Assembly: GCF_002795805.1 (NCBI RefSeq)
Contig: NZ_CP018799.1
Coordinates: 2,039,001 to 2,103,000, forward strand
Direction: 5' to 3'
Length of the DNA stretch: 64,000 bases
From: Mariprofundus aestuarium
Lineage (GTDB): Bacteria > Pseudomonadota > Zetaproteobacteria > Mariprofundales > Mariprofundaceae
Positions 31,018-43,390 of this stretch are shown one piece after another (within the stretch, counting starts at the first letter, position 1; the number at the start of each line of letters is the position of its first letter). The translations under genes were made by a program, and so were the position numbers. Below the pieces are notes generated by a model. That model was not told the origin of the DNA, ran no database searches, and was given only the letters and a program-made list of their open reading frames with translations.

Positions 31018-32304
31018 TTAGACGATCATACCTGCGCCAACAGTGTTGTTAGTGAATGTATCAATCATAATAAAGCTGCCGGTAATACGATTATCCACAT
31101 AACGATCGTAGTGCAGCGGTTTCATCAGCTTCAGGGTAATCTGGCCGATCTCGTTCATGGCCAGCTCGTCTGCATCCTGCTGATGATCCAGCGTATGGAT
31201 ATCTGTCTTGAAATCGATACTGGCCACCATCGCCTTCACGCTATTGGTCGTGTGCTTAACGATGTATTTCTGACGTTCTGTAAGTGGCTCATCGCCAATC
31301 CAGCAGACATTGGCTGTCAGTTCCTTGGCATCCATCGCCTTGTCGCCAACGTGGGTGAGCATGTCCCCGCGTGACACATCAATCTCATCATTGAGCGTCA
31401 GCGTCACACTCTGCGGTGCAAATGCTTCATCAAGGTTGCCATCGAAGGTGACAATCTCTTTGACTGTAGAGCTGTTGCCGCTCGGTACGGATACGATTTT
31501 ATCGCCGACTTTAACGGTACCTGAAGCAATCGTGCCCATGAAGCCACGGTAATCAGGAAGGTCGACGGTCTGCGGACGGTTCACCAGCTGAACAGGCATA
31601 CGGAATGGCAGGCTGTCGATATCGCCCAGTGTGGAGAGCGTCTCCAGGGTTTCCAGCAATGTTTTGCCTTCATACCAGTTCAGGTTATCACCGCGTACGG
31701 CAACCATGTCACCATCAAGTGCCGACATTGGCAGGCAGATCAGATTCTTCACGCCCTGCTTGTCGCAGTAGGCCTGCATCTCTTCGCGAATATTCTCATA
31801 GATCGCCTGATCAAAACCAACCAGATCCATCTTGTTCACCGCCACAATCAGGTGGGTAATGTTCAACAGTGCCAGAATATGGGTATGACGCTTGGTCTGC
31901 GGCATCACACCGTTGCGTGCATCGATCAGGATAATCGCAGCACTAGCGGTCGAGGCACCAGTCACCATGTTGCGGGTATATTGCTCGTGGCCCGGACAGT
32001 CGGCCATGATGAACTTGCGTTTCGGGGTGGCGAAGTAGCGGTAAGCTACATCAATGGTGATACCCTGCTCGCGCTCAGCGGAGAGGCCATCAGTCAGCAT
32101 TGCCAGATCAATCTCGGATGCCGAAGCGATATGATGCTCCTGCCCCTTCTTCTTGCGTACGGCCAGAAGCTGATCCTCGAACGCACCCTTGGTGTCCACC
32201 AGAAGGCGGCCAATCAGCGTCGATTTACCATCGTCCACACTGCCTACCGTCACCAGTCGCAGCAGTTCGATCTCTTCAGTCATCTTAATATTCAGTTCAG
32301 TCAT
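31018..32304 (-). CDS. cysN: Sulfate adenylyltransferase subunit 1 (GTPase)
   Basis: With CysD, activates sulfate to APS at the cost of GTP. 428 residues, shorter than E. coli CysN (475) but with a complete EF-Tu-like core: GSVDDGKST (21-29), DCPGHEQY, NKMD, and two beta-barrel domains. It lacks a CysC (APS kinase) extension. Last gene of the operon, before the terminator at 30962; a hairpin repeat separates it from cysD. Confidence 0.95.
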   Translation of the reverse strand: MTELNIKMTEEIELLRLVTVGSVDDGKSTLIGRLLVDTKGAFEDQLLAVRKKKGQEHHIASASEIDLAMLTDGLSAEREQGITIDVAYRYFATPKRKFIMADCPGHEQYTRNMVTGASTASAAIILIDARNGVMPQTKRHTHILALLNITHLIVAVNKMDLVGFDQAIYENIREEMQAYCDKQGVKNLICLPMSALDGDMVAVRGDNLNWYEGKTLLETLETLSTLGDIDSLPFRMPVQLVNRPQTVDLPDYRGFMGTIASGTVKVGDKIVSVPSGNSSTVKEIVTFDGNLDEAFAPQSVTLTLNDEIDVSRGDMLTHVGDKAMDAKELTANVCWIGDEPLTERQKYIVKHTTNSVKAMVASIDFKTDIHTLDHQQDADELAMNEIGQITLKLMKPLHYDRYVDNRITGSFIMIDTFTNNTVGAGMIV

Positions 32305-32468: not shown

Positions 32469-33395
32469 TCAGAAGTAACCCTCTTTCTTTTTGTCTTCCA
32501 TACTGTTGGAGCCGTGATCGATGATACGCGTTTCACGCTCCGAGCGGCGTGCTGCTGCTGCCTCGATGACAATCTCATCCATGTTCGTTGCATCCGAACG
32601 CACGGCACCGGTACACGGACTGCAACCCAGCGTACGGAAACGGCTCATCACCATCTTCGGCTCCTCGCCTTCAAGCAGCTGATCCTTCATCTCTTCATAG
32701 TAGGGAATCAGCAAATTCTTGCGCTCCACCATCAAGCGCTCCTTGGCAAAGTAGAGCGGTACAATCGGAATCTTCTCCTCGCGGATATAGAGCCAGACAT
32801 CCATCTCGGTCCAGTTGGAGATCGGAAATACACGTACGCTCTCACCTTCATGAATACGACCATTGTAGAGGCTCCACAACTCAGGACGCTGGTTCTTCGG
32901 ATCCCACTGGCCGAACTCATCTCGCATCGAGAAGACACGCTCTTTGGCCCGGCTTCGCTCCTCATCGCGACGTGCACCACCAAAGGCAGCGTCATACTCA
33001 CCCTCTTCCAGCGCATCGAGCAGCCCCTGAGTTTTCAGTGCGCCGCAGCAGCGGGCCACACCGTGATCCTTCGGATTCATGCCCTTGGCAATCGCATCCT
33101 CGTTTTTTCGCACGATCAGATCGGCGCCCACCTCTTTGCAGTAGTCATCGCGAAACTGATACATCTCTTTGAACTTGAAACCGGTATCCACATGCAGCAG
33201 CGGAAACGGCAGCGGTGCAGGATAGAAAGCCTTGCGTGCCAGATGCAGCAGCACGCTTGAATCCTTACCCACCGAATAGAGCATCACAGGGTTGCGGAAC
33301 TCCGCCACCACTTCACGGATGATATGAATCGACTCCGCCTCCAGCGCTTTAAGCTGTGTCAGTTTATGTTCTGATATTTCACGTTCAGACATCAT
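32469..33395 (-). CDS. cysD: Sulfate adenylyltransferase subunit 2
   Basis: The catalytic PP-loop subunit of ATP sulfurylase. 308 residues (E. coli 302). The PP-loop [13 protein letters not shown] is near residue 41-53, the GARRDEE motif near 149, and the family C-terminal GCSPCTGA motif is present. It has a good GAGAAG-type site and lies 21 bp after cysH. Confidence 0.96.
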
Positions 33396-33416: not shown

Positions 33417-34139
33417 TTAAATTCCTTCACCATCTTCGATATCGCCAGTTACCTGCTTGATACTCATCACATGCAGGCCGCACTCTGCCACACCGTCATC
33501 ATTTTCCCACCACCAGCGACCGGCACGTTCATCCTCGCCCACCGTGATGGCACGCGTACAGCATTCGCAACCGATGGACTGATAGTGGGCATCATGAAGC
33601 CTGTTGTATGGCACACCGTTGGTGCGCACATACTCCTCCACATCGTTCAGGCTCCACTCCAGCAACGGGTTGTACTTTTTCAAACCGTACACCACATCAG
33701 TTTCAATCAATTGAAGATCGGCACGCCCCTTCGACTGCTGGCGGCGCCTGCCGGTAATCCACGCCTCTTTACCTTCCAGTGCCCGCATCAGCGGCCGAAC
33801 CTTGCGAATTTCACAGCAGTCCTTGCGCAGTTCTACCGACTTCCTGAACAGGTTTACCCCATGCTCACGAACCATCGCTTCAACTTCATGGCAGTCGGGA
33901 AAAAGAACCCTGACCCGTATCCCGTAGCGTTCCTCAAAGGCAGAAACTACATCATAGGTTGCCTGCGGCAGACGCCCGGTATCAAGTGTCATAATAGGGA
34001 TATCGAGGCCATTTCTGCAGATCAGGTCCACCATCACCGAGCCTTCCAGCCCCATGGAGCACGGGTAGACCAGAGCATCGCCATGGGTCTCCTTGGCCAC
34101 TCTCAGCAGCTTCACTGCCTGTTCAATTAAAGCACTCAT
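33417..34139 (-). CDS. cysH: Adenylylsulfate (APS) reductase, assimilatory, CysH family
   Basis: Reduces APS to sulfite using thioredoxin. 240 residues, and it has both CC 108-109 and C191/C194 (GCECC), which hold a [4Fe-4S] cluster in the APS-using branch of the family; PAPS-specific E. coli CysH lacks them. The catalytic cysteine is C220 in the ECGLH block. No APS kinase (CysC) is encoded here, consistent with direct APS reduction. The start is followed upstream by the transporter fusion, 3 bp apart. Confidence 0.92.
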   Translation of the reverse strand: MSALIEQAVKLLRVAKETHGDALVYPCSMGLEGSVMVDLICRNGLDIPIMTLDTGRLPQATYDVVSAFEERYGIRVRVLFPDCHEVEAMVREHGVNLFRKSVELRKDCCEIRKVRPLMRALEGKEAWITGRRRQQSKGRADLQLIETDVVYGLKKYNPLLEWSLNDVEEYVRTNGVPYNRLHDAHYQSIGCECCTRAITVGEDERAGRWWWENDDGVAECGLHVMSIKQVTGDIEDGEGI

Positions 34140-34142
34140 CTG

Positions 34143-36776
34143 TTACCCGATCCTTCCCAGTAGCGGCCACCAGACCGATACGGTTATCATAAATACTACA
34201 AATGCGGTCAGGGAGAGAACAGCCCCATAACGCAGCATATGCGAAGCTCGCACGTAGCCTGTTCCGAATATCATGGCATTCGGCGGTGTTCCCATCGGCA
34301 GCATAAAGGCAAAACCGGAAACGATACCGACAGTCAGTGCCGCCGTGACCGGGTCGATATTTGATGCTACGGCAAGTGGAACGGCAACCGGCAATACAAT
34401 GGCAACAGCAGCAGCATTGCTCACCCCTTCGGTAAACAGCAATGTAATCAGTGCCAGCATCGCCAGCAGTGCCAGCCCGGCAATACTCTCAGGGAAGAGC
34501 AGGTGGGCGAGCCACAGGCCCGCTCCGGTAACAGTCAGCGCCTTGCCAATGGCAATGGCACCGCCATACATCAGTACGACACCCCAGTTCACATGCTCTT
34601 CAACCGCTCGCCAGCTCACAAGGCGCAGCGCAAACATCACCACCACGCTGATCAACGCAATGCCTGCTAGGGAACTGGCATGGCCAGCCAGTATCCAGGC
34701 GAGCATGGTCACCAGCAGCAGCAAAGCCATCGCTTTTGCCTTCAGGTCAAAGTCACCCAACTCAAGGCGGCGAAGGGAGATGCGTTCACGGGCCGAAGAG
34801 ATATCCAGCCCTCCCATCGGTGTAACACGGATCAGCACAATGGCAGAGACTGCCAGTACAGAGAGTGCGATTGGTGCTGCAGCAAGCGTCCAGTCGGCAA
34901 AGGAGAAGGAGCGACCTGTCAGCTCCTCACTCAGCGCCATAGCCAGTGGCCCGCGCGCACCACCCAAAAGGGTGATCACACCGCCGGTAATCGCACCCCA
35001 CGAGAGAGCAAAAAAGATCGACTGCGCATATCGGCTTCCCGCCTTAAGCCCCAGGCTTCGCACAATTTCCCATGCGATCGGCAGAAACAGCGCGGCCACA
35101 GCATGCTCGGGCATGAAACATGCCATGACAGCGGGCAATAGAAGCATGGTCAGCAGCAGGCGAGTCGGACTGGTTCCAAAACGGTCAATGGTCAATAGCG
35201 CCATGCGCTCGGAGAGGCCGCTCTGCATCGCACCAGCGGCCAGCATGAAAGCACCCAGAATGAAGAACACCGCAGGATTGCCGAACAGTGCAAACACATC
35301 GGTAGCCGGTAATACGCCAAGCAGAGGCAGCAGCGCCAGCCCTAACAGTGACGTCACCGCCAACGGCAGCAGCTGTGTTACCCAGAGAACCAGGCAGAGC
35401 ATAAAGACGATAAGCGAGCTCCAACCATTCTGGCTCAACCCTTGCGGCGCATCCATGGTTCCGGCAGAAATCGCCAGCAAAGAAATCACCACCAACGCTG
35501 CAAAAGGCAAAGCCTCTCCCGCCAGCAGCACATGCATTGGCCGGCGATCCAACTGCGTTCCATTCTCTCCATCATTGCTTGCCCGCAGATGGCGGCGCAA
35601 GCCATCCACCCATCCATCCAAGCGGCGCCCCATCGAAGATGATACCCAGCGCTCCGCCAGTGCAGGTTCACCGCCATCAAGCACACGACTCTCCATCGGC
35701 GTCATTACGCGCCCCATATGGCGCAGTCGATGCGTGGGGAACTCCTTCTGTTTCAATGCCGCGTAGAGGTGGAGAAACAACTCCTCCATCTCTTCCAATG
35801 ACGGTAGCTCATGTTTCTCCAGCGGCGTTCCCGGCAGCGGCCTGAAAGGCTGCAGCAGCGGCACAACTCCGTGTGCAATCAGCGCATCGATGCCCTTCTT
35901 GCTTGAGTCGATATCCTCAAGGCCAACGATGAGGTTGCTGACCACAGCTCCGGTGCGAAACACCTCGCGGGCATGGTCCAGTGCTTTCCAGATGGCCTTC
36001 TGACCACCAGAGGAGGCCTTTCCGGGACACACTTCTGCAAAACGATCAGCATCGTGCAGCTCAAGGTTACAGACAAACACATCAAGCCCTGCCGCATAGA
36101 GTGCATCGATAACAGCTGTATCCTTGGGTGCAACGGTTTCAAGCGCGATCTGACGATGACCAAGGTGCCTCCTGAGCAGGGCAATGACCGGCACAAGTCG
36201 ACCGAGTCCCGCATCATCACCGGGAGCAAAACTGTTGTAGAGGTAGACAGTATCAACCTCACGCTCGGAGAGTGCGGCACGCACCACTTCAACCAGCTCA
36301 AGCGGATCTCGCAGTGGCGGCTCACTCTCATTGAGCATCGAATCGTACTGGCAGTATTGACATGCCTTGCCACGCTCGGCAAAGAAGCCGCAACCCATCA
36401 GCGGGTTAAGCATCAGCAGGTTTTCATGCAGGGAAGAGAAACTACCCATGCGGGCACCGGAACGGGTCCTGTTACGATAGAAGCGTGGTGCAGGAAGCAG
36501 TTGAACCTCAAGCGATTCATCCTGCCAGGTCAGGCGAGCGGAACCTTCACCGTCCTCCTGAGTCAAGCGGATCGGACTCTGCTCGGTATAGGGCTGTGCT
36601 ACGGGAACCGTTGCAAAGTGGCCACTGGGCAGCCTGATATCCACAACAGATTCGGTCGCATTGGCCTGTGCAACCCAGCGTGACGCATCGGACAGCCCGT
36701 CCGGCAGCGTCACACCGTGGTTCACCAGCGCCAGCTTGCAGCGCCCCGGATTCTCGAATGGATTCATGGCTCCCAT
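34143..36776 (-). CDS. Fusion of a radical SAM enzyme with an SLC13/DASS anion transporter
   Basis: 877 residues in two parts. Residues 1-400 look like a radical SAM enzyme: a cysteine motif C129-x9-C139-x2-C142 (atypical; the classical spacing is CX3CX2C), then VYLYNSF, ALETVAPKD, CNLELHD and NLIVGLED as strands of a barrel. Residues 415-877 hold about 11-12 membrane helices with SLC13 features such as GNPAVFFILGAF, FTEGVSNAAAVAIVLPVAVP and MLPMGTPPNAMIFGTGYV, which fits a sulfate-type symporter. The gene lies between cysH and the sulfite reductase, so sulfate uptake is the likely job of the C-terminal half. The role of the enzyme half is unknown. Some residues between 395 and 415 are a linker. 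A start at 36767 is also possible. Confidence 0.85.
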   Translation of the reverse strand: MGAMNPFENPGRCKLALVNHGVTLPDGLSDASRWVAQANATESVVDIRLPSGHFATVPVAQPYTEQSPIRLTQEDGEGSARLTWQDESLEVQLLPAPRFYRNRTRSGARMGSFSSLHENLLMLNPLMGCGFFAERGKACQYCQYDSMLNESEPPLRDPLELVEVVRAALSEREVDTVYLYNSFAPGDDAGLGRLVPVIALLRRHLGHRQIALETVAPKDTAVIDALYAAGLDVFVCNLELHDADRFAEVCPGKASSGGQKAIWKALDHAREVFRTGAVVSNLIVGLEDIDSSKKGIDALIAHGVVPLLQPFRPLPGTPLEKHELPSLEEMEELFLHLYAALKQKEFPTHRLRHMGRVMTPMESRVLDGGEPALAERWVSSSMGRRLDGWVDGLRRHLRASNDGENGTQLDRRPMHVLLAGEALPFAALVVISLLAISAGTMDAPQGLSQNGWSSLIVFMLCLVLWVTQLLPLAVTSLLGLALLPLLGVLPATDVFALFGNPAVFFILGAFMLAAGAMQSGLSERMALLTIDRFGTSPTRLLLTMLLLPAVMACFMPEHAVAALFLPIAWEIVRSLGLKAGSRYAQSIFFALSWGAITGGVITLLGGARGPLAMALSEELTGRSFSFADWTLAAAPIALSVLAVSAIVLIRVTPMGGLDISSARERISLRRLELGDFDLKAKAMALLLLVTMLAWILAGHASSLAGIALISVVVMFALRLVSWRAVEEHVNWGVVLMYGGAIAIGKALTVTGAGLWLAHLLFPESIAGLALLAMLALITLLFTEGVSNAAAVAIVLPVAVPLAVASNIDPVTAALTVGIVSGFAFMLPMGTPPNAMIFGTGYVRASHMLRYGAVLSLTAFVVFMITVSVWWPLLGRIG

Positions 36777-36790
36777 AGCTTCAGTGCGCT

Positions 36791-39151
36791 TTAGATATCG
36801 CCACTCTTCTCAACCCGGATTTTCCACTGGGTCTCGGAGATCTGCTCTTTGGAGAGCACCTTCTGCCCCTGCTCAATAAGTGAGAGCGGCACATTCTCAA
36901 TCGGCGCACCGTCATCAAGGATCACATCCAGCTGTGAGCCGACAGGCATCATGGTGAGTTTGATCTTCGTCTTCACAAAGTTCATCGGGCATGCGACACC
37001 GGAGAGGTCGAGAAGAACAACATCGGCAGCTGCTTCAGTGGTCTCCGCAGCAGCTTCAACCACCCCTTCAACCGCTTCAGGTACAGCAGAAAAACGTTTG
37101 GCCGCCAAGGCCAGCCAGTCACTCTGCACCTCTTTCAGCCTGGTAACACCCGCCCCCGGATCCGCCAAGTCGATACTCATCAGAGCCGACTGCACTGCAG
37201 TCAGACCTGCAATCACATCTGCATCAGCTGCAGCATTGGAGGCCAACAGCGCGAACACGGTTGCATCATCTTCCGGCGCTTCACCATAAGGAACCAGATA
37301 GGCGCGTGCTGCTGAGATAGCCGAACGGCGTAGTGCTGTCAGTGCTTCTGCCCAGAACATCGCATCAAGATGCGCACGTGCAATCAGCATCTCATACTCA
37401 GCTTCAGAGATCAGTGCATCCGACATTGAAAGCACCGCACCTGCACACTCACCCTTTTTGTTGCCCTTGGTATTGAATGCCTCGTTCTCGCTCCAGTCGT
37501 AGATCAGCCCTTCAACCTCGCCGGCATCAGCGGCAAATGGCGCCAGAATCTCTGAGATGCCCTCTTTGCCCAATCGCGTTGCCCAATCGTGCATGGACTC
37601 ATTTTCGTTGCGCCCTTCTTTATAAGCATTGAGCACTGCAATGCCCGCCTCCGGCGCATACTTGGCAGGAACAGGATCAGTCGCGAATGCCAGTGGGGAA
37701 CCGGCAACACCGGAACCACCGACATGCAGCTGATAGTGCGGCACAGCCTGACCGGCCACCTTCTTGGCCATGCCATGGAACCCGAGATCGGCAATGTGGT
37801 GGCGACCACAGGAGTGCTGACAGCCGGATGCTTTAACCGTAATACCGGCCAGCGTGCCATCCTTTTTCAGGTCGGCCATCAACGGCTGCAGAGCAGCTGC
37901 AAGACCGCGACTTGAGGTGATACCCAGACGGCAGGTCTCCGTGCCAGGACACGCCACGACATCGGAAATGCCACGTGCATATTCAGTCTGCAAACCTGCA
38001 GCGTTCAGGATCGCCAGAGCGGCATCAACCTTTTCAGCATCAACATCACAGATCACCATACCCTGCTCGGTCGTGACACGCAGCTCATCCGTTCCGGCAG
38101 CACGCGCAGCATTGGCCACTGCACGGCACTGATCCGGGGTCATATCACCACGGAACAGGTTCAACAGAATCGCGGATTTGCCATTGTGCTGATCCACCAC
38201 ACCGGAATCGGCAAAAGGAAGCGTGCCGGTTGGCGTACGCCAGTTCGCTTCACCGTAACCTGAATCATCGGCATGGGTCTTCTCGATCACTGCACGCTGT
38301 TTTCTGTACTCTTCGATAAACCCTTCGGCACCAAGCCTCTGCGCCACATACTTCATACGGGCGCGGGCACGGCGTTTGCGATCGGAGTATTTGAAATGCA
38401 TACGCATCAGCGCTTCACCGACAACAAACAGTTCAGACTCCTGGATAAACTCTTCCAGCAACAGTGCGCCCATAGGCTGGGATGAGAGGCCACCGGCCGC
38501 CCACACCTGGAATCCGGGCTTGCCATCTTTGTGGGTCGCGATGAAACCGGCATCGTGCATGCCTGAAAGGCCGCAATCGGTAGCACAACCGGAGAAGGTC
38601 ACCTTGAACTTGCGTGGAAACTGCTGTCCCAGCGGATGGCGCAGATAAAACTCTGCGAATTTACGCGCGTGAATGGTCACATCTGCATGCTCAGCGGGGC
38701 AACGACCAGCCAGAAAACAGGTGGTTACATTACGAACCGTGTTACCGCACGCTTCACGCGTAGTCAGGCCAACTGCATCGAGTTTGCGCAGAAACTCCGG
38801 CACATCATCGAGAGAGACAAAGTTGGCCTGGATATCCTGCCGCGTCGTTACATGTGCTACCTTCTCAGGTGCTTCGGTCAGCGTACCATCAGTCGGCAAA
38901 CATCCGGCATAGAGCTCAACGCACTCAGCCAGCACATCCATCTGATCCGCAGTGACACAACCACCGGGCAGCTTGGCGCGCACCATCTGCACCCCCTCCT
39001 GCCGCTGGCCGTAGACGCCCATCTGCAGACGGAACGGCGTAAACCGCTCTTCGGACATGCGTCCCTCTTTAAACGCCTTGTAACCCGCCTCGAACTCATC
39101 GACATCGGATGTGTGTGCAAAATCAAATTCAGTTGCCATAACTAACCCCAT
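36791..39151 (-). CDS. Siroheme-[4Fe-4S] sulfite (or nitrite) reductase with C-terminal TusA domain
   Basis: 786 residues. Residues 1-560 are a ferredoxin-type nitrite/sulfite reductase: GNTVRNVTTC (136-145), SGCATDC (187-193), and in the second half the siroheme-cluster cysteines C401-x5-C407 and C444-x3-C448. A helical region (about 560-700) and an Ala/Glu linker follow. Residues 710-786 are a TusA-type sulfur carrier with its cysteine at C721 in GVACPMNF. The sulfur operon points to sulfite as substrate. The reductase would make sulfide, and the TusA domain could take it or pass it as persulfide. Start may also be ATG 39139. Confidence 0.9.
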   Translation of the reverse strand: MGLVMATEFDFAHTSDVDEFEAGYKAFKEGRMSEERFTPFRLQMGVYGQRQEGVQMVRAKLPGGCVTADQMDVLAECVELYAGCLPTDGTLTEAPEKVAHVTTRQDIQANFVSLDDVPEFLRKLDAVGLTTREACGNTVRNVTTCFLAGRCPAEHADVTIHARKFAEFYLRHPLGQQFPRKFKVTFSGCATDCGLSGMHDAGFIATHKDGKPGFQVWAAGGLSSQPMGALLLEEFIQESELFVVGEALMRMHFKYSDRKRRARARMKYVAQRLGAEGFIEEYRKQRAVIEKTHADDSGYGEANWRTPTGTLPFADSGVVDQHNGKSAILLNLFRGDMTPDQCRAVANAARAAGTDELRVTTEQGMVICDVDAEKVDAALAILNAAGLQTEYARGISDVVACPGTETCRLGITSSRGLAAALQPLMADLKKDGTLAGITVKASGCQHSCGRHHIADLGFHGMAKKVAGQAVPHYQLHVGGSGVAGSPLAFATDPVPAKYAPEAGIAVLNAYKEGRNENESMHDWATRLGKEGISEILAPFAADAGEVEGLIYDWSENEAFNTKGNKKGECAGAVLSMSDALISEAEYEMLIARAHLDAMFWAEALTALRRSAISAARAYLVPYGEAPEDDATVFALLASNAAADADVIAGLTAVQSALMSIDLADPGAGVTRLKEVQSDWLALAAKRFSAVPEAVEGVVEAAAETTEAAADVVLLDLSGVACPMNFVKTKIKLTMMPVGSQLDVILDDGAPIENVPLSLIEQGQKVLSKEQISETQWKIRVEKSGDI

Positions 39152-39257: not shown

Positions 39258-40091
39258 TCAGTCGCCGAACTTCAACTCACAGGCCTGTTCATAGGTGACC
39301 AGCTCGGTAATGGTTGGATTCTCTCCGCACAATGGGCAGCCAGGGTCCTTGCGCAGTTTCAGCTTCTTCCACTCCATACGCAGTGCATCAAAGACCATCA
39401 GCTTACCGGCCAGAGAATCACCGATACCGAGCAACTCCTTCACCGCTTCAACAGCTTGGATGGTTCCCACAGCTCCGGCCAGTGCGCCGAGAATGCCCGC
39501 TTCCGAGCATGATGGAACCAGGCCTGCCGGTGGTGGCTCCGGATAGAGACAGCGGTAACATGGCGCTCCCTTCACCTGATGCGGCTTGAATGTCGCCACC
39601 TGCCCTTCAAAACGGAACATCGCACCGGAAATCAGCGGTATCTTCTCCATATAACAGGCATCATTGACCAGGAAGCGGGTCGGGAAATTATCACAACCAT
39701 CAATCACCAAGTCATAATCGCGGATAATGTCGCGAATATTCTCTTCGGTAACAAAGTAGTTGTAGGTGTTGACCTTCACATCCGGATTCAGCGCCTGAAT
39801 CGTCTCGCGCGCACTTTCCACCTTGGGCATGCCGATGCGATCCTGGTTGTGGATGATCTGGCGCTGCAGGTTGGATGAGTCCACCACATCCGCATCAGCG
39901 ATACCGATGGTTCCCACACCGGCGGCAGCCAGATAATAGGCAACAGGTGAGCCGAGCCCTCCTGCGCCGATCATGAACACCTTGGACTCAAGCAGTTTGC
40001 TCTGCCCCTCGGCACCGACTTCCGGCAATATAATATGGCGCGAATAGCGCTCGATCTGTGCTTCTGTAAAATCAATCAATTCAAACTCCAA
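39258..40091 (-). CDS. moeB: MoeB/ThiF-like adenylyltransferase (E1-like)
   Basis: 277 residues. Activates the C-terminal glycine of a ubiquitin-like sulfur carrier by adenylation. ATP loop GAGGLG at 42-47, SSNLQRQ, and zinc cysteines in CYRC and CPLCG. It has no rhodanese domain, so sulfur must come from another donor. In this operon the probable partner is the ThiS/MoaD-like protein at 41581 and not molybdopterin synthase. The assignment moeB rather than thiF or hesA is by likeness only. Confidence 0.88.
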   Translation of the reverse strand: MEFELIDFTEAQIERYSRHIILPEVGAEGQSKLLESKVFMIGAGGLGSPVAYYLAAAGVGTIGIADADVVDSSNLQRQIIHNQDRIGMPKVESARETIQALNPDVKVNTYNYFVTEENIRDIIRDYDLVIDGCDNFPTRFLVNDACYMEKIPLISGAMFRFEGQVATFKPHQVKGAPCYRCLYPEPPPAGLVPSCSEAGILGALAGAVGTIQAVEAVKELLGIGDSLAGKLMVFDALRMEWKKLKLRKDPGCPLCGENPTITELVTYEQACELKFGD

Positions 40092-40217: not shown

Positions 40218-41150
40218 CTAGACTTCGATGCCTTTGAACAGGTCGGTAGACATATAGCGCTCAGCCATTGATGGTAGAATCACGACAATGCGCTTGCCCT
40301 TCATCTCAGGTCGGCATGCGATACGAACAGCCGCTGCCACGGCCGCACCTGATGAGATTCCACCAGGAATACCCTCTTCATCGGCAAGGCGACGCGCCAT
40401 GGAAAAAGCTTCGTCATTGGTCACCTTCTCGACGCCATCGAGAATATCCACATTCAGATTCTTCGGAATAAAGCCTGCACCGATACCCTGAATTTTATGC
40501 GGCCCTGGCGCTTCACCGGAAATCACAGGTGAATCTGCAGGTTCAACGGCAAATGCCTTAAATTCAGGATTACGCTGCTTGAGAACCTCGGTTATTCCGG
40601 TAATCGTGCCGCCTGTACCAACACCGGCAACAATCGCATCAACCTTTCCATCGCAGTCAGACCAGATCTCCTGAGCGGTGGTTTGGCGATGAACCTCTGG
40701 GTTGGCGGGATTCTCGAACTGCTGTGGCAGGAACGCCCCTTCAGTCGAACTGGCGATCTCTTCAGCCTTGGCAATCGCACCCTTCATGCCCTTCTCTGCA
40801 GGTGTGAGCACCAACTCGGCACCGAGCAGCTTAAGAAGCTTGCGACGCTCCAGACTCATCGATTCAGGCATGGTCAGGATACAGCGGTAACCCTTGGCGC
40901 GGGCAACGAAGGCCAGTGCAATACCGGTATTGCCACTGGTCGGTTCAACAATAAGCCCACCAGGTTTCAGTCGCCCATCCGCCTCGGCCGCTTCGACCAT
41001 CGCCTTACCAATACGATCCTTTACCGAATTCAGCGGATTAAAGAACTCCAGCTTGGCAACGATTTCAGCACCACAGTCAGCGCCGATCCGGTTCAGACGA
41101 ACCAGCGGGGTATTTCCAATCGTTTCAGCAGCATTGTTATAAATCGCCAT
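40218..41150 (-). CDS. cysK: Cysteine synthase A
   Basis: Makes cysteine from O-acetylserine and sulfide with PLP. 310 residues; PLP lysine K44 in [18 protein letters not shown], and GTGGTITG phosphate loop near residue 178. It stands downstream of the sulfur-carrier genes in the operon, so a carrier-bound sulfur donor, as used by the CysM/CysO pair of mycobacteria, cannot be excluded. Confidence 0.94.
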
Positions 41151-41340: not shown

Positions 41341-41580
41341 TCACCCTTCGATGATGTTCTGCTCGATAGGCTCAACGTGAACGCCCTGCTCACCCAGCCA
41401 CTTCACTGCCGCATCAATAACATCTTCACCGCCTTCAAGTTCAAGCCCGACAAGTCCCATGCCGTCCTTTACCTCAGCCATGCGAATGTTGGTTACAAGG
41501 TCGAATTCTCTGCCAAGCTTCCAGATAATCGGATCGCGAACTGTGGCCTCGTTAAAGGTCAGATAAACACGAAACTTCAT
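41341..41580 (-). CDS. NIL-domain protein
   Basis: 79 residues, essentially one NIL domain (an ACT-like fold found at the end of methionine ABC transporter ATPases and in some sulfur-metabolism proteins). Landmarks: PIIWKLGREFDLVTNI and VIDAAVKWLGEQGVHVEPI. The start directly follows the stop of the sulfur carrier gene (TAAATG), so both are translationally linked. It may sense methionine or another sulfur ligand, or assist sulfur transfer; inference. Confidence 0.85.
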   Translation of the reverse strand: MKFRVYLTFNEATVRDPIIWKLGREFDLVTNIRMAEVKDGMGLVGLELEGGEDVIDAAVKWLGEQGVHVEPIEQNIIEG

Positions 41581-41859
41581 TTAGCAGCCGCCTGCAATTG
41601 CCGGAACGATGGAGAGCTCATCACCATCTTTCAGTGCGGTAGCGCGACCCTCAAGGAAGCGGACGTCTTCATCGTTCACATAGACGTTCACGAAACGGCG
41701 AATTTCGCCGGCATCGTCACACAGGCGCTCTTTCAGACCTGGATGTGCAGCCTCAAGAGCCTCAATCACATCACCGACGGTTGCACCGTCTACGGATACT
41801 TCGTCAGATCCACCAGTCAGCTTACGCAGTGGGGTAGGAATACGTACAGTTACACTCAT
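41581..41859 (-). CDS. ThiS/MoaD-like ubiquitin-fold sulfur carrier ending in Gly-Gly-Cys
   Basis: 92 residues of beta-grasp fold. The sequence ends AIAGGC, so the Gly-Gly used for adenylation and thiocarboxylation (G90-G91) is followed by one cysteine. The last residue must be removed before a MoeB-type enzyme can act, or the Cys itself has a role. In known protein-thiocarboxylate pathways (CysO of Mycobacterium; HcyS of Wolinella) a metalloprotease trims or releases the carrier; none is encoded in this operon. Linked to thrC, cysK, moeB and a NIL gene. Confidence 0.88.
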
Positions 41860-41894: not shown

Positions 41895-43145
41895 TTATGC
41901 GTCGGCCACGCCGTCGGCTTCGGCCAGCAGATCAAACTCTTTCAGGCTGGCGTTGATAATACGCGGTTTGGTGATCGCATCCACTATCGCTTCCTGCGTC
42001 TTCAGGCCGTTACCGGTAATGCAGAGCACAATCGACTCATCGCGAGGCAGCTTGCCGGACTCAATCATCTTCATGGCACAACCCAGTGTTACTCCGCCAG
42101 CAGTCTCAGCGAAGATACCCTCGGTCTCGGCCAGAAGCTTCATGGCTGCCACCACCTCTTCATCAGAGATGTCTTCTGCCCAGCCGCCGGATTCATTAAT
42201 CACGCGGTTGGCGTAGTAACCATCAGCAGGATTACCAATGGCCAGTGACTTGGCGATGGTATCTGCATGAACAGGGTGAATCATATCGGTTCCGTCTTTC
42301 ACAGATTTAGCAATCGGTGAACAGCCGGTCGCCTGCGCACCGTACACAGCAGTACCATTGTCTTCGATCAGGCCGAGTTTGATAAACTCCTTGATCGCCT
42401 TGTCCACCTTGGTGCAGAGCGAACCGGAAGCCATAGGGACAACCACATGTTTCGGTGCTTTCCAGCCCAGCTGCTCCATCACCTCATAAGCCAGTGACTT
42501 GGAGCCTTCAGCATAAAACGGACGTACATTCACGTTCACAAAAGCCCAGCCATATTTGCCAGCCACTTCAGAACAGAGGCGATTCACATCGTCATATTTA
42601 CCTTTAATGCCAATGATATTGGTACCGAAGATACCAGCGCCGAGCACCTTGCCCTGCTCCAGATCGTGTGGAATGAACACGTAGGATTCCAGGCCTGCAG
42701 CAGCCGCATTGGCGGCAACGGAACCCGCCAGATTGCCTGTAGAGGCACAGGCCACAGTGGTAAAGCCAAACTCAACGGCCTTGGAAAGAGCCACGGAGAC
42801 CACGCGATCTTTAAAAGAGAGGGTCGGATAGCAGACCGAGTCATTCTTGATATAGAGCTCTTTAACACCAAGCACCTTCTCAAGACGCTTTGCACGCACC
42901 AGCGGTGTAAAGCCGTTCTGTGCACCGACAGTTGGCTCGCCATCAATCGGCAGCAGCTCTTTATAGCGCCACATAGTCTGCGGGCGGGACTCGATCAGTT
43001 CACGGGTAAACTTACCCTCCAGCTTGTGATAATCGTAAGCCACCTCAAGCGGACCAAAGCAGAACTCGCATACATGCGTAGGCTCAATCGGATACTCCTG
43101 CCCGCATTCACGACACTTCAGCGCTCGAACGATACTTTCACTCAT
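41895..43145 (-). CDS. thrC: Threonine synthase with N-terminal zinc ribbon
   Basis: Converts O-phosphohomoserine to threonine with PLP. 416 residues. A four-cysteine ribbon (C11, C14, C26, C29) precedes the PLP domain with LSFKDRVV (Schiff-base lysine) and CASTGNLAGS. ATG 43145 follows GGAG at 8 bases. It is first in the sulfur operon, directly under the SAM-I riboswitch. Close relatives of ThrC in such clusters may use sulfur carriers in homocysteine synthesis, so a role other than threonine is possible but not shown. Confidence 0.88.
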   Translation of the reverse strand: MSESIVRALKCRECGQEYPIEPTHVCEFCFGPLEVAYDYHKLEGKFTRELIESRPQTMWRYKELLPIDGEPTVGAQNGFTPLVRAKRLEKVLGVKELYIKNDSVCYPTLSFKDRVVSVALSKAVEFGFTTVACASTGNLAGSVAANAAAAGLESYVFIPHDLEQGKVLGAGIFGTNIIGIKGKYDDVNRLCSEVAGKYGWAFVNVNVRPFYAEGSKSLAYEVMEQLGWKAPKHVVVPMASGSLCTKVDKAIKEFIKLGLIEDNGTAVYGAQATGCSPIAKSVKDGTDMIHPVHADTIAKSLAIGNPADGYYANRVINESGGWAEDISDEEVVAAMKLLAETEGIFAETAGGVTLGCAMKMIESGKLPRDESIVLCITGNGLKTQEAIVDAITKPRIINASLKEFDLLAEADGVADA

Positions 43146-43182
43146 GATAGACACTCCGTTTTATCAGGCGCATCCAGAAACG

Positions 43183-43211
43183 AAAAAACCTCCGCGATAG
43201 ATGCGAAGGTT
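43183..43211 (-). terminator. Intrinsic terminator of the SAM-I riboswitch
   Basis: On the minus strand AACCTTCGC pairs with GCGGAGGTT (one G-U), followed by six Ts. It lies about 60 bases after the aptamer and about 37 bases before thrC, the usual expression platform for transcription attenuation. Confidence 0.85.
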
Positions 43212-43269
43212 GTCTATGAATAAAACACGGATGTGCTCTAAACGAACAACCCGCCATCATCGCTCCCTC

Positions 43270-43390
43270 CGTGATTACTCACTTTGGGCAGGCATTGGCA
43301 CCATTCTCCAGAAATCATCAATGATGTTCTCTGGCCGGTTGCCGCAGTTTCACAGGGCCTGTAACCCTCCACCGCTCTGGATAAAGCCGG
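43270..43390 (-). promoter_or_regulatory. SAM-I (S-box) riboswitch aptamer
   Basis: Reading the minus strand from 43386: TTTATCCAGAG, then GGTGGAGGG, GGCCCTGTGAAA, GCGGCAACCGG, and AATGGTGCCAATGCCTGC, ending with GTAA pairing back to TTAT. These are the conserved blocks of the SAM-I aptamer in the right order and spacing, including the GGCCC, GGCAACC and GGTGCCAA core. With the terminator below, SAM binding should stop transcription of thrC and the genes after it. Confidence 0.93.

Follow-up and report, generated by a model that had tools for sequence, protein, structure and literature searches.

The locus studied here lies in a 64,000-nucleotide stretch of the Mariprofundus aestuarium genome (the window) and raises two questions: does a single gene really encode a radical SAM enzyme joined to an SLC13-type transporter, and what might such a protein do among genes of sulfate assimilation? 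We found an uninterrupted reading frame of 877 codons on the minus strand, and the reading of it as one chain, made in the original prediction, is borne out by the frame itself, by domain models for both halves and by junction-spanning frames in relatives. The true start may be codon 4, because the alignment of relatives begins there. The parts of the gene are as follows.

34143-36776, minus strand: fused gene, radical SAM domain plus DASS/SLC13 permease, 877 aa (ORF, Pfam/NCBIfam, genome comparison)
35586-36776, minus strand: radical SAM half, residues 1-397 (NF045502 above cutoff; AlphaFold2; LipA/HydE structure matches)
35505-35585, minus strand: linker, residues 398-424 (variable in length and sequence, frame kept)
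34146-35504, minus strand: DASS/SLC13 permease half, residues 425-877 (TIGR00785 above cutoff; Foldseek matches to NaDC3, NaCT, VcINDY and NaS1)

An AlphaFold2 model of the N-terminal half by itself reached a pLDDT of 85.3 and a pTM of 0.87. For the whole chain, modelled from a 26-row alignment, the mean pLDDT was 84.9, with low confidence at residues 401-406 and a pTM of 0.57, so that the relative placement of the two halves is left unfixed by the model.

Fused and split forms in the Zetaproteobacteria

An assembly error joining two genes had been named from the start as something that could undo the claim. Within the same order, the junction is covered by a single frame in 34 of 41 genomes, including those of cultured isolates, the halves are neighbouring genes in six, and one is broken by contig ends. 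This distribution excludes chance or a misjoin.

Whole-genome searches covered the window's own phylum, and a pattern scan and plasmids were used elsewhere. The 398 genomes of the phylum that were searched gave close relatives for 74 of the order's 78 members, the other four being genomes that are 57-88% complete; a further 16 genomes gave remote matches only (E 1e-9 to 1e-19). Across about 85,000 species genomes, the scan with patterns built from conserved stretches returned 69 loci. All their record titles are Zetaproteobacteria or genera of that class, bar two titled just "proteobacterium", and cultured isolates among them are M. ferrooxydans PV-1, M. micogutta, M. erugo, Mariprofundus sp. 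KV and EBB-1. The plasmid search for relatives of the radical SAM half led to NitD types.

The tree rows drawn from the 69 loci comprised 57 fused and seven split forms, one of the seven counted as split owing to a stop inside the radical SAM part; the permease tree contains one more split locus, the eighth. Split rows were grouped in one region with fused rows nested nearby, on a tree with a long outgroup branch, and a minimum of three changes between the two states is needed, one of them resting on the internal-stop locus. In four split loci (L021, L022, L023 and L024), the end of the radical SAM gene lies at most a few bases from the earliest possible start of the permease gene, the codons overlapping or abutting, and the fused protein therefore corresponds to both complete proteins placed end to end. 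The two genes were never apart in any locus read, the split forms being always adjacent. We conclude that the two-domain protein is genuine and old within the sampled Zetaproteobacteria, and that the fusion is class-wide in these marine iron-oxidising bacteria.

Conservation among 26 fused sequences was uneven. The best-conserved stretch is the radical SAM core (residues 111-320), with a mean pairwise identity of 72% and 79 of 210 columns invariant, followed by the N-terminal region of the same half (62%), the permease half (61%) and the linker (26%, with zero invariant columns). In close pairs, dN/dS ranged over 0.02-0.12 in the radical SAM half and over 0.05-0.16 in the permease half; that of the 29-codon linker was alike in most close pairs, a segment too short to weigh. 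Judged by these substitution patterns, both halves are under purifying selection, and the low dN/dS together with the high conservation of the radical SAM part speaks against an enzyme domain in decay or kept as mere decoration.

The radical SAM half and its nearest relatives

Residues 61-342 match the NCBIfam model NF045502 (variant_rSAM) with 164 bits against a cutoff of 125 (E 5e-48). The predicted structure of the N-terminal half superposed on LipA (Z 20.0, 242 residues, 3.3 A), BioB (Z 17.9, 234 residues, 3.7 A) and HydE (Z 17.9, 232 residues, 4.1 A), and Foldseek with the whole-chain model likewise found HydE for this half; a sequence search of solved structures with it gave a single chance match. 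Domain search and structure prediction of residues 1-400, put forward as the check on the original prediction, thus point to a BioB/LipA/HydE-like radical SAM barrel, and the model argues against the other outcome then envisaged, a different fold. The putative cluster-binding motif lies at:

36351-36392, minus strand: CX9CX2C motif (predicted), C129-C139-C142, invariant in the class and common to NitD

The spacing read from the sequence at the outset was confirmed, and C129, C139 and C142 are invariant in every aligned homologue. With a score above the NF045502 cutoff, these three cysteines and the predicted barrel, the N-terminal half is a member of the radical SAM superfamily, as far as a modelled fold can tell.

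CX9CX2C was rejected as a novelty in itself, the same spacing being found in the described but uncharacterised MSMEG_0568/NitD family. The earlier remark that no enzyme of this kind had been described is therefore fair for the fusion and too broad for the motif. MSMEG_0568/NitD proteins (TIGR04043) are the nearest recognisable relatives of this half, at 26-30% identity, and resemble it in overall layout as well as in cysteine spacing. Membership of that family nevertheless failed: the window protein scored 106 bits and two other zetaproteobacterial proteins 91-99 bits, against a cutoff of 303.7. The zetaproteobacterial domain further differs from NitD in being fused or adjacent to a transporter, and the C-terminal CGxCGAC-type motif of NitD is absent from the window protein, whereas CGxCGAC or CAKCGAC occurs in 15 of 16 distant relatives. 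CX9CX2C, likewise, is found in all but one of these 16 distant relatives, which come from the phylum; the exception, L149, has CX3CX2C.

An alignment of the class with eleven NitD-type proteins has 31 invariant residues, including the cluster cysteines, E239, K253, G285-L286 and P306/F311/P313/T317/L319. A further 73 are invariant in the class only, C236 and C250 among them; these are two extra barrel cysteines with no counterpart in the NitD relatives. NitD is described as part of the Nit1C cluster for cyanide and nitrile assimilation (PMC11049912, PMC9716671), and the sections of these two papers that were consulted contain no statement of its reaction. More broadly, in the literature searched, we found no report of a substrate, product or activity for this domain or for NitD.

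The barrel fold is shared with LipA, HydE and BioB at about 15% identity, and the cysteine spacing of these enzymes differs from CX9CX2C. We considered a replacement lipoyl synthase, an idea that came from the LipA fold match and from an LplA-like neighbour in genome G041, and rejected it: a canonical LipA is encoded elsewhere in the M. aestuarium genome (396 bits). At E 0.01 the window protein matched neither LipA nor LipS2, and the PV-1 orthologue scored 26 bits with LipS2 (cutoff 270). In G041, the LplA-like lipoate ligase gene (L158, 4669-5715) stands directly after an unfused sulfate-operon DASS permease.

The permease half, its operon and the SAM riboswitch

Residues 430-874 match Pfam Na_sulph_symp above cutoff (E 2e-57), and the DASS model TIGR00785 gave 241 bits against a cutoff of 198.6 (E 2e-71). 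In Foldseek comparisons of the permease half, target-normalised TM-scores were mostly 0.8-0.88 for the best rows. Given the TIGR00785 score and an INDY fold in the model, this half is a DASS/SLC13 member. What had been called a 12-helix anion transporter is indeed SLC13-like, but DASS/VcINDY-like rather than a plain 12-helix carrier; carriers of this type normally have 11 transmembrane helices and two hairpins. Two loops stand out in the alignment with VcINDY.

35103-35111, minus strand: PEH (residues 556-558), where DASS carriers have their first SNT motif (VcINDY alignment; P, E and H invariant)
34947-34964, minus strand: GGARGP (residues 605-610), where the first sodium clamshell otherwise has a TPPN-type loop (VcINDY alignment; R608 invariant)

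Neither of the two hairpin-tip SNT motifs of the family is found as such, the first being PEH and the second SNA. Since the curated DASS model accepts the protein despite these changes, they mark a subgroup. In VcINDY the SNT and TPPN-type motifs replaced here make up the first sodium site, and the glutamate of PEH and the arginine of GGARGP might stand in for a sodium ion. In our own reading of the alignment, A607 is the counterpart of S260, a position at which, according to a review of sulfate transporters of the prokaryotic DASS group (PMC5840216), most sequences of clades B and C also have alanine. The unfused permeases L161, L162 and L164 carry a similar GEH with GGARN. We accordingly rejected a link between PEH/GGARGP and the fusion, because unfused permeases carry PEH or GEH with GGARN; the pair differs from the SNT/TPPN of DASS carriers and is partly common to unfused permeases in other proteobacteria.

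The setting in a sulfate assimilation operon was rightly recognised in the original prediction and is larger than first stated. Reading along the minus strand, the order is SAM riboswitch, thrC, ThiS, NIL, cysK, moeB, sir-TusA, the fused gene, cysH, cysD and cysN, through which we infer a single transcript.

43254-43387, minus strand: SAM (S-box) riboswitch aptamer ahead of the sulfur genes (Rfam RF00162, 58.7 bits)
43187-43211, minus strand: terminator-like hairpin and T run after the aptamer (consensus match only)
41895-43154, minus strand: threonine-synthase-like PLP enzyme, probable thrC (PF00291)
41581-41859, minus strand: ThiS/MoaD-type sulfur carrier (PF02597)
41341-41580, minus strand: NIL-domain protein (PF09383)
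40218-41150, minus strand: cysK, cysteine synthase (TIGR01139)
39258-40091, minus strand: MoeB/ThiF-type adenylyltransferase (domain search)
36791-39151, minus strand: sulfite/nitrite reductase with C-terminal TusA sulfurtransferase domain (PF01077, PF03460, PF01206)
33417-34139, minus strand: cysH, APS/PAPS reductase (domain search)
32469-33395, minus strand: cysD, sulfate adenylyltransferase subunit (domain search)
31018-32304, minus strand: cysN, sulfate adenylyltransferase subunit (domain search)

The gene order of this sulfur unit recurs across the class, and in some loci cysH was not found. Several relatives have an extra short TusA-like ORF between cysH and cysD, and the ThiS-type carrier of the window ends in GGC instead of GG. 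The ThiS/MoeB pair may reflect a protein-thiocarboxylate route to cysteine or homocysteine. A SAM riboswitch was found upstream of thrC in all seven related loci tested, two of them split. SAM is an end product of sulfur use. The riboswitch, the class-wide conservation and the split forms all go beyond what was first observed at this locus.

Elsewhere in the same genome there is one SulP-STAS protein and a second, ordinary SLC13, and the model for the sulfate ABC-type binding protein had zero matches. G041, a genome of a different family, has an unfused DASS permease 36-38% identical to the permease half, located after sir-TusA and sat in an operon that lacks the radical SAM gene.

Proposed function, alternatives and known systems

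The explanation that we favour, to which we would give an even chance, is that the permease imports sulfate and that the cytosolic radical SAM domain is an active enzyme serving sulfur assimilation. The C-terminal DASS-type permease would bring in sulfate for the surrounding pathway. Sulfate is the probable cargo because of the gene context, the family and the lack of a sulfate ABC binding protein in the genome, and the unfused relative beside sat and sir-TusA in G041 also ties the permease to sulfate assimilation. The N-terminal domain would be a complete, probably catalytically active radical SAM enzyme related to NitD/MSMEG_0568, likely placed on the cytosolic side given INDY topology and a basic segment before the first membrane helix. 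C129, C139 and C142 are predicted to hold a [4Fe-4S] cluster, with SAM also bound, and radical chemistry would act on a substrate needed for, or made by, the module leading from sulfate to cysteine or homocysteine. Fusion, or tight adjacency in the split lineages, would fix the proportion of enzyme to importer and possibly give them a shared location, and SAM probably turns down transcription of the module through the S-box leader.

Several observations favour this explanation: retention with the cys genes across the class, with split forms always adjacent; a radical SAM core that is the most conserved part, with low dN/dS and residues shared with NitD; and a predicted fold matching the catalytic LipA, HydE and BioB. 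The SAM riboswitch and the lack of a sulfate ABC-type binding protein in the genome support it as well. On the other side, fold likeness, here that of a model, is by itself no proof of activity, and the operon of G041 implies that the pathway has no general need for the radical SAM protein. It is also somewhat odd that a SAM-consuming enzyme should be made mainly at low SAM, and the SulP permease may make it doubtful that the fused permease is the sole route for sulfate.

The same data can be read in other ways. The fusion may be incidental, a stop lost between adjacent operon genes whose products go on working independently; the unfused neighbours with overlapping or abutting codons, the variable linker, the two whole ORFs set end to end and the intermingling of fused and split rows, with at least three changes, would all follow. 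We nevertheless consider this unlikely, since the fused state has lasted without flickering in almost every part of a class that has diverged to about 60% identity, and the two genes are never apart in the loci read. It is unlikely, too, that the domain is a sensor whose bound SAM and/or Fe-S state gates sulfate import as a rapid, post-translational counterpart to the riboswitch. A radical SAM fold should bind SAM, the domain is attached to the importer that opens the pathway, and the riboswitch ahead of the operon, which makes SAM a natural end-product signal, lends SAM gating a physiological logic; yet about 100 invariant columns in 36 sequences are enzyme-like and far beyond what SAM and cluster binding need, several lineages encode the domain as a protein of its own, and at a full-length pTM of just 0.57 the domain interface is outside the model's reach. 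The fuller version, a SAM/Fe-S-gated sulfate transporter through which one metabolite would control the operon twice, the messenger via the riboswitch and import via the protein, seems to us quite unlikely.

The cargo could also be the substrate or product of the radical SAM enzyme, for example an organosulfur compound or another anion, in a side pathway housed within the cys operon. DASS carriers accept many dianions, PEH/GGARGP in place of the first SNT/TPPN makes specificity unreadable from dicarboxylate carriers, and SulP is also in the genome, but the gene position between sir and cysH-cysD-cysN and the related permease in a sat-sir operon that has no radical SAM gene both point to sulfate. 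We regard this reading as highly improbable, and the permease half as a probable sulfate importer.

Literature searches for a radical SAM-transporter fusion, or for the fused protein in Zetaproteobacteria, returned nothing relevant, nor did we find in the literature a report of a radical SAM enzyme and a secondary transporter in a single chain. Each half by itself is of a type already described; for their combination, the conservation of the fusion and its regulation, the literature searched has no precedent. A class-wide fusion is strong guilt-by-association, linking an uncharacterised NitD-related radical SAM branch to sulfate assimilation and giving that branch a testable physiological context, for which cultured Mariprofundus strains have the fused protein.

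Radical SAM enzymes are mostly soluble proteins. Compared with VcINDY and NaS1, the permease half shares the full-length fold and the family match, and compared with these and the prokaryotic DASS sulfate transporters, the N-terminal radical SAM domain is an addition. The closest parallels in design are SulP-STAS and MetNI-C2, transporters with regulatory cytosolic domains. As in these systems, a transporter for an anion or sulfur nutrient is joined to a soluble cytosolic domain; the difference is that the soluble domain here is predicted to be an enzyme-like radical SAM barrel.
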